Positions 5,301-8,300 of a stretch of DNA of 64,000 nucleotides are shown here, in pieces; the stretch's first letter is position 1, and each line of letters opens with the position of its first letter. The notes beneath the pieces are model-generated. The model did no database searches. It saw nothing but the letters and a program-made list of their open reading frames with translations, and had not been told where the DNA came from. This stretch comes from Siniperca chuatsi (Eukaryota; Chordata; Actinopteri; Centrarchiformes; Sinipercidae), in the NCBI RefSeq assembly GCF_020085105.1, contig NC_058043.1, forward strand, positions 18,949,667-19,013,666. Direction: 5' to 3'. Both the position numbers and the translations under genes were made by a program.

Positions 5301-8300
5301 TATTTTTGATATTACTACTGAATCAAATGACTCCATGTGATGTAAAAATGGTTATTAGTACTGCTGATTAGACTGTATGCAGCTTTCAGACATTTTCAGC
5401 TCATTGTTTTGGTTGCCTGCCAGACTGGTGAAGAAAGTGCAACATCAAGTGTAATATTCACAGTTATGAATTATCTCTCTCAAACAGACGTCAAGTCTCT
5501 TGAAGTTTTTATTAACACTGTGCTGAAAAGCATTTGTAATAACTGAGCTACAACATGCAAACACACTGATGCGTCCTCACCTGAAGATCTCATTTTTTGT
5601 GGTGATTTCTGTGTCCTGGCACTGCTTGCAGCACAGTGATGTGCACTGAGGAGGAGAGACAACGTGTTAAAAGGATGGATACATGTCAAATATTCTCATT
5701 GCAATGTGTTCTCCTTGTTGAGGCTCATAAAGATGCTATAATAGTCCACCCCATCCTTTATGCTTCCACAAGAGCAACTAGCTGACACGAGTTCAGGTCT
5801 TCAGTGTGACCAGTGAGACACATTAAGGAGGATTATTATCCTCAATCAGGTAGGAGGGAAAAAAGCAGATAATAGGCACATTTACAAAGCACTTCACACA
5901 TCCAGTGACAGCTTTACAGTTTCTGGTGATCCAACAGTAGCACTACATGCTAAGAGCTTTGTGTGTGTGTGTGTTTTTAGCTTTATGTCTGTGATAAGGT
6001 TAGAGCGACACTGGTCTTCCTCACCCAGGAATAGCTGTAATTTCTGTCAATATAACGTTCTAATGTAAATGTTACTAAATCCACAATTTACATAATTTAC
6101 TTGATCAATGAAAGCTATTGATAACTGCCAAAATGTTTATTGTCATTGAGGTAAATCCCATAATAGTGCACCAATAAGAACATTTTCACCCACATTTAAA
6201 TCACATTAGACCAAAATATCTACAAAGTGTACAATCAAAATCCAGTGTTTAGATGCTTAATACATTTAGATGAAACCCCAAACAACTAATATGGTTAAAG
6301 ATTTTAATATTGTAGCTGAATGAATGGACAGACAGGTAGAGTGAAGGCCTCTACCTGTCTGTCCATGAAATATTACAAGTTCCCAAAAATTGAATGCTGC
6401 AACATTTCTTTCAAGGTCTTCATCGCCTTGCATTTGTAGTTTTGTTATGATGACGACGACGACGACGATGATGATCGAGAGGAGATGGCGCAAAAATGAA
6501 ATGGCTTGTGTGGCAGGATATTATACCCAGTGAAGTAAGATATGTATAATTCCATCCCCTATTTAAATGATATGGTGGTAGGAAAAATGTGAGTGTCTTG
6601 ACACTAAGCAGTGAGGTAAGCAGGGAAGACAGAGGCCAAACCACTTTGCTCTGTTTATATTAAAATATGGATGTTAGTGGAGAGGTGAGGCAGGCAACAA
6701 ACAGGCAATGTATACTGCATGTTTACTACAGATCTATTAAAATGCATTGTTACAAGCGATAAAATCATACTATCTTTGCTTACACTCAATTATTTCTAAA
6801 CACTTTTGATTGTGAAGGCCAACTTTGGACTGAAATACCGCAGCAACAAGACATCTGTGAGCCCCCGAAGGCATGGTTAAATATACCAAAGAACATCGGA
6901 CGGAAAAACAGACACAGTGTGCAACGTAGGAACACCAGATCTGATTACACAAAGAGGGAAATGACGTCTGTGACTGTAGGAACAGAGAAGAAAGGTGGTT
7001 TGGCAGGGAGGAGGGGTTAGTGGTGACCTTTCCTTACCCGGTCCATGATGTCCAGCTCACAGCGAAGTCTCTGGATGGCACTGCCGATCTTCAGCAGCTG
7101 GAGCCGCAGAGCGTCGTCTATGGGCAGACAGGCCGCCACTCTGTAGGAGAAGTCTGACAGAATCCAGACAGAAGGGAATGAAATGTGGGATGAAAGGAAG
7201 GAAAGAAAGCACAAAGAACACAAACAGAAAGACGCACGTGTGCATGTGTGTACGCGTCTGCGATGCATCTGTAATACACTGAACAGAGGCTGACCTACGG
7301 CGTTCGTAGGGAGAGAGTCATCCTTCAGATTCTCGTCCCATTCATGGAGCTGTTTCTTCACTCTGTTCATGAGTGACTCCTGTGAGGTGAAACACAGGAA
7401 GCAGATTGGTTGGTTTACATTCGCTCCTATTTGATGTTTATGTATGGAGGAAATTCCAAGTAGTGCACATGGGCTGCAATACTCACAGAGTCGTAGAGTG
7501 CGTACACCCAGGGTGGCCATGGCGTCAGGCTGGCACAGTGAAACTTCCTCTGTGATGAACAACAGACGCACCATTAACAAATTACATCTGCATATAATGA
7601 TTCAAGTATAATATTAATTTATTCCTTCCTTCCTGTCTCATATTGCTATTACTGACTTACACAACATGGCCAAAAGTATGTGGACATCCAAACATTTTCT
7701 TGTAAAATCCCTTGAATGATTTATCAATTATCAAAATTGTTGCAGATTAATTGATTGACTAATCAATTAATCAACTAATTGTTTCAGCTCTACATGGTAT
7801 ATCTGGAAACATATAGTAAATACTGTACAGTGGCATGATATATATATATATATATACATACAGTATCTAATTACATAACGTATCAGCAAAGCAAACAAGA
7901 CAAAAAGGCCTTAAATGTGTCCTAGTTGAGAAATACGTAGATGGAGAAGGAGGGAAATCATTGATAATTAAGAGACCTTTTGTAATTTTCTGATGTTTTA
8001 CAGACCAGACCAGTAATCAGTTAATCGAGAAAATAAACTGTAGATTAATCAATAACGGAAAAAATCGTTAGTTGCATTCTTATTTTTTTTTCTCTGTCTA
8101 GACATGTGAGCCACTTCAAATTTCCATTTCCTTGTGATGGACAATAAAGTTTTTTGTGATTCTTATTCTGAAGTACGCAATAGCAAAAGACAGATGTATA
8201 TTACGTGTAATATACAATATACACACAAGTGTTTGTGTGTCTGACCTGTTGGTAGTTATTCCACCAGCACTGGGCCTGTTTGCAGGTCTGAGTCGGGGGT

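Follow-up and report, generated by a model that had tools for sequence, protein, structure and literature searches.

Sequence comparison indicates that the end of a crbn exon, together with its splice donor and the start of the following intron, was copied into a foldback MITE that lies 33.8 kb away on the same chromosome of Siniperca chuatsi, in intron 1 of a receptor gene labelled erbb3; both loci lie in the window, the stretch of 64,000 nucleotides analysed here. The copied piece probably entered as a patch in the repair of a break in the hairpin arm of the MITE, after the element had inserted. The features concerned are as follows.

7245-7320, minus strand: source segment in crbn, consisting of the last 26 exon bases (7295-7320), the splice donor and the first 50 intron bases (7245-7294); from the reading frame and the cereblon match.
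40875-41307, plus strand: MITE copy of the foldback type, with a TTAA at each end (TTAA-AGGGACAG ... CTGTCCCT-TTAA); from the sequence, the family copies and the flanks.
40904-40987, minus strand: surviving portion of the left hairpin arm, covering arm positions 1-84 as numbered from the loop; from the arm alignment.
41007-41040, plus strand: positions 1-34 of the right hairpin arm, ending at the left breakpoint CTGT; from the family alignment.
41041-41118, plus strand: patch from crbn 7245-7320, replacing arm positions 35 to about 104; from BLASTN, genome searches and the family alignment.
41119-41122, plus strand: GAGA at the right junction, an untemplated addition or slippage of the adjacent GA run, of which the last A could be the element's own; from the family alignment.
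41123-41307, plus strand: remainder of the right arm from about position 105 to 292, terminal repeat included; from the consensus alignment.

Within the window, BLASTN aligns 7245-7317 with 41041-41113 in the same orientation at 70 of 73 bases (E = 2e-28), with a longest exact run of 44 bases and three substitutions (7251/41047, 7265/41061 and 7310/41106); beyond a GA run with two more bases in the element than in crbn, the match extends through GTCA to 7320/41118. The first-pass annotation had described this shared segment, with its three substitutions and 2-base GA difference, and its coordinates are correct to within one base. When 7235-7330, 41020-41140 and 7145-7420 were used as queries against the 719-Mb genome, in a search that passes over simple repeats and very common words, each found exactly two places, crbn and the element. 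A chance match is rejected on the E value within the window and on these two places in the genome. There is also very little likelihood of an assembly artefact or a haplotype mis-join, given that the two copies differ by three substitutions and in the length of the GA run, and that element sequence runs on both sides of the patch.

Comparison of the window with itself (at least 88% identity, 35 bp, low-complexity filter on) returned three pairs: the crbn/element pair, an inverted repeat at 24368-25495 and a 43-bp pair. The inverted repeat consists of two copies of about 150 bp, 89% identical and about 1.1 kb apart; its arm recurs elsewhere in the genome, several times in pairs separated by about 1 kb, and 24368-25495 is therefore probably a TIR element some 1.13 kb long. 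The 43-bp pair is a direct match of 90.7% identity between 368-410 and 63936-63978, near both ends of the window.

The patched element belongs to an abundant, non-coding family (2438 first-look candidates in the genome search, 40 of them scored) of foldback elements whose 292-bp arms enclose a loop of about 20 bp. It was compared with 78 other copies, 39 retrieved by this first search and 39 by a second one that used the left arm as query, which constitute a sample because 40 of the 2438 candidates were scored in the first search. TTAA, which we take to be the mark of piggyBac, stands at both ends of the window copy as the target-site duplication of a piggyBac-type MITE; among the other copies with both ends recognised, the 4-base flanks are identical in 16 of 25 and differ in the remaining nine. 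A literature search for the element's terminal sequence found no paper. With DNA parameters and without a shuffle control, a near-complete copy (L014, 568 bp) folds at -236.6 kcal/mol and the window element (431 bp) at -66.5 kcal/mol. The left arm of the window copy has an internal deletion of its own, from about position 85 to 270, and the 22 bp at its left end correspond to arm positions 271-292, in minus orientation like arm positions 1-84. By BLAST coverage of the fetched stretches, at least 90% of one arm is kept in 55 of the 78 copies and at least 90% of both arms in only one, the shorter arm being less than half length in 70; these rates are not population estimates, because the copies were chosen by their similarity to the window copy. 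A single copy with both arms near-complete is as expected of an unstable palindrome, though with the copies picked in this way.

Just left of the patched element, 40776-40832 holds a fragment of the same MITE arm (positions 29-87) that is older and has diverged. In one other copy (L029:545-559) the arm alignment stops at position 34 (CTGT), as in the window copy, and picks up again at position 87 beyond 15 other bases; this copy may record a second break at that CTGT. Unmatched stretches longer than 60 bp occur in six of the 78 copies (L035, L064, L065, L066, L083 and L088). Three of these share a non-palindromic centre of about 240-280 bp (L064:587-869, L088:279-560 and L083:285-525), which suggests a longer subfamily; by eye, the stretch in L035 looks like another inverted-repeat element and that in L066 like a SINE tail. 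The 77-bp stretch of L065, considered as a unique capture, was rejected when a genome search found it to be a repeat itself, and no further unique capture was shown among the 78 copies, with this one of the six candidate stretches searched.

The arm consensus, built from 27 of the 39 first-batch copies, reads CTGT followed by GGATTATC and, 70 bases later, TTTTGGCGC. The window copy reads CTGT, the crbn piece, GAGA and then TTTTGGCGC; about 70 bp of the right arm are thus missing exactly at the patch, and 82 bp, of which 78 bp come from crbn, stand between the breakpoints instead. A single BLAST alignment crosses arm positions 31-110, in either arm, in 55 of the 78 other copies and in neither arm of the window copy, and the crbn piece was found in none of the 78 (best other match E = 0.19). 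Relative to the family consensus, microhomology was not seen at the left junction (element T|G, crbn A|T) or at the right junction, where the four bases GAGA have no identified source. Neither a target-site duplication nor poly(A) was found around the patch.

In crbn, the exon end at 7295-7320 (minus strand) reads ...DDSLPTNAV and is followed by a GT donor, and the next exon lies at about 7040-7153 (minus strand). Joined and translated, the two exons hit Protein cereblon chains in the PDB at a best E of 2.4e-35, and the best match reads through the exon join as SLPTNPIDFSYR. Because the joined translation matches cereblon, the coding part of the shared segment is, on this homology, ancestral to crbn, as the first-pass annotation had suggested. 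Intron accounts for 50 of the 76 bases of the crbn segment, and the donor locus is intact. Since the coding part matches cereblon, 7145-7420 of crbn matches only itself and the patch in the genome, none of the 78 other copies carries the piece and 55 of them run across the site, the direction of copying, as read from these comparisons, is from crbn to the element. The earlier proposal that a small TIR element captured a crbn fragment is supported on the same grounds. Its alternative, that element sequence replaced the end of the crbn exon and its splice donor, has nothing in its favour beyond the shared sequence itself and, against the cereblon match, the unique crbn flanks and the absence of the piece from all 78 other copies, its probability is close to nil.

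Divergence bears on the relative age of the patch. The remaining right arm differs from the family consensus at 12 of 184 positions (6.5%), which is within the range of the 39 first-batch copies (mean 4.3%, range 2.7 to 7.0%), figures that are lowered because 27 of those copies made the consensus. Were the patch as old as the insertion, about eight differences from crbn would be expected, counting 73 sites in the element and 50 intron sites in crbn, whereas three are seen (Poisson P = 0.042). The test is rough, since it concerns one locus and assumes equal rates, and the distance to the consensus may include subfamily differences; as such it favours a capture that would have followed the insertion of the element. 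The exchange had been called recent: this stands in a relative sense only, in that the three substitutions make the patch probably younger than the insertion.

A second patched copy was not found in the genome searches with crbn and element queries or among the 78 sampled copies, so there is no sign of movement after the capture. Spread by transposition, as in a multicopy Pack-type element, is rejected on the single patched copy found in these searches, and the Pack-type transduplication suggested by the first-pass annotation, in the plant Pack-MULE sense of capture followed by spread, is accordingly unsupported. The element could nevertheless have moved, because both terminal repeats and the TTAA flanks are present, and capture might have depended on transposition if an excision gap was repaired through a detour into crbn and the element has since stayed or hopped locally. 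We consider this unlikely, given the single patched copy, breakpoints well within one arm and away from the element ends, a source 33.8 kb away on the same chromosome and a patch that looks younger than the insertion.

Gap filling independent of transposition describes the event better than transduplication. The foldback MITE would have inserted first in the present-day intron 1 of erbb3; a break or stalled fork would then have arisen within the right arm of the hairpin, at a point 34 bp in from the loop, possibly because of the hairpin itself, with loss of about 70 bp of that arm; a copy of 76 bp of crbn, which lies 33.8 kb along the same chromosome, would have closed the gap, probably made from DNA rather than RNA; and the ends would have been joined without visible microhomology and with the addition of four bases, leaving the crbn donor intact. 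This account, which we hold to be the probable one, agrees with the loss of arm sequence, a breakpoint in the interior, a source in cis, a donor left intact and the single patched copy found. Against it, the lack of microhomology at either junction is as compatible with end joining of a patch as with template switching, whether insertion preceded capture is judged from the rough divergence test (P = 0.042), and 33.8 kb exceeds the distance of less than 15 kb found in 56.9% of published cases (PMC8277862, in the excerpts drawn on here).

The patch might instead have been templated by RNA, through reverse transcription of unspliced crbn pre-mRNA and joining of the product into the break, as proposed for class 2 templated sequence insertions (PMC5110952, as excerpted). 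The source is a protein-coding gene, the donor is intact, and the lost and extra junction bases without target-site duplication or poly(A) resemble that class; however, with 50 of the 76 bases intronic only pre-mRNA could have served as template, and a source 34 kb away in cis contrasts with experimental insertions, for which the excerpts report no obvious chromosomal preference. This makes an RNA template improbable, to about the same degree as capture by transposition, and a gap filled from DNA remains the preferred reading.

The label erbb3 for the host gene has mixed evidence from protein matches. Exon 2 scores best with erbB-4 (54.5 bits) and lower with erbB-3 (49.3), and the top chain for the kinase exon is EGFR-labelled (9p9u, 83.4 bits), followed by erbB-3 (63.4) and erbB-4 (46.4); the HRN motif is presumably a mark of ERBB3, and exon 1 was placed by eye on an ORF at 45482-45652 that resembles a signal peptide. 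Because crbn and erbb3 are both on the minus strand, the exon end carried over from crbn, at 41091 on the reverse strand, and its splice donor lie in sense orientation in erbb3 intron 1. That erbb3 might on rare occasions be spliced with the piece as a cryptic exon end, so that some transcripts include a crbn-derived segment, and that, more generally, the hairpin arms of this MITE family might be recurrent capture sites, is a speculation to which we give only a slim chance. The case is cleanly resolved, with a unique source 34 kb off, 78 unpatched copies for comparison and a breakpoint in a hairpin arm, and is consistent with the idea that palindromic elements break internally and thereby yield small duplications of gene fragments, among them splice sites carried into another gene in sense orientation.

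Capture of this kind had been called rarely described in vertebrates, which overstates the novelty because the case resembles published single-copy Pack-TIRs: according to the excerpts of the animal survey (PMC8277862), 370 Pack-TIRs are known across 100 animal genomes, 81 of them vertebrate, with eight cases in zebrafish. As excerpted, the survey attributes single-copy Pack-TIRs mostly to gap filling independent of transposition, places 59.8% of 281 single-copy cases within a chromosome, finds breakpoints skewed toward the element interior and names internal breaks, possibly from secondary structure, as one trigger. The patched element is like them in its two TIR ends, internal breakpoints and single copy, in a patch whose source is unique, is not a TE, lies on the same chromosome and is not beside a repeat, and in a retained intron, which shows that it was not retroduplicated (50 of 76 bases). 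By the definitions in those excerpts, non-TE sequence lies between TIR ends of at least 10 bp each (here 22 bp on the left and the right arm to position 292); the parent is unique, with at least 90% identity and a length ratio of 80-120% (here 96%, 76 versus 78 bp), and is free of TEs in the flanking 100 bp, as judged by the genome matches of 7145-7420. The definitions also ask for internal sequence of more than 100 bp and a BLAT score of at least 100; at 82 bp between the breakpoints, length settles the matter here, and the 78-bp patch would have fallen outside the survey. This 100-bp minimum is a pipeline cut-off rather than a mechanistic feature, and since shorter patches exist the survey may undercount them. 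Other differences from most Pack-TIRs in the excerpts are the absence of visible microhomology, a sign of gap filling by template switching that is found at one or both breakpoints in 67.6% of their cases and was seen here at neither; the distance of 33.8 kb rather than less than 15 kb; and a host that is a TTAA-flanked foldback MITE, where 87.2% of the set are hAT or TcMariner.

Similar comparisons can be made with two other systems. Like class 2 templated sequence insertions, or TSIPs (PMC5110952, as excerpted), the event has a copied patch, an intact donor, no target-site duplication, no poly(A), and both a deletion and extra bases at the junctions; unlike them, its source is near in cis and its site is inside a MITE palindrome. 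It shares with plant Pack-MULEs, as the excerpts of PMC8277862 describe them, a gene fragment between terminal inverted repeats, but differs in its superfamily, in being a single event and in showing no sign of spread by transposition. The process is thus one already described in animals, and the patched element is a clear example of it.
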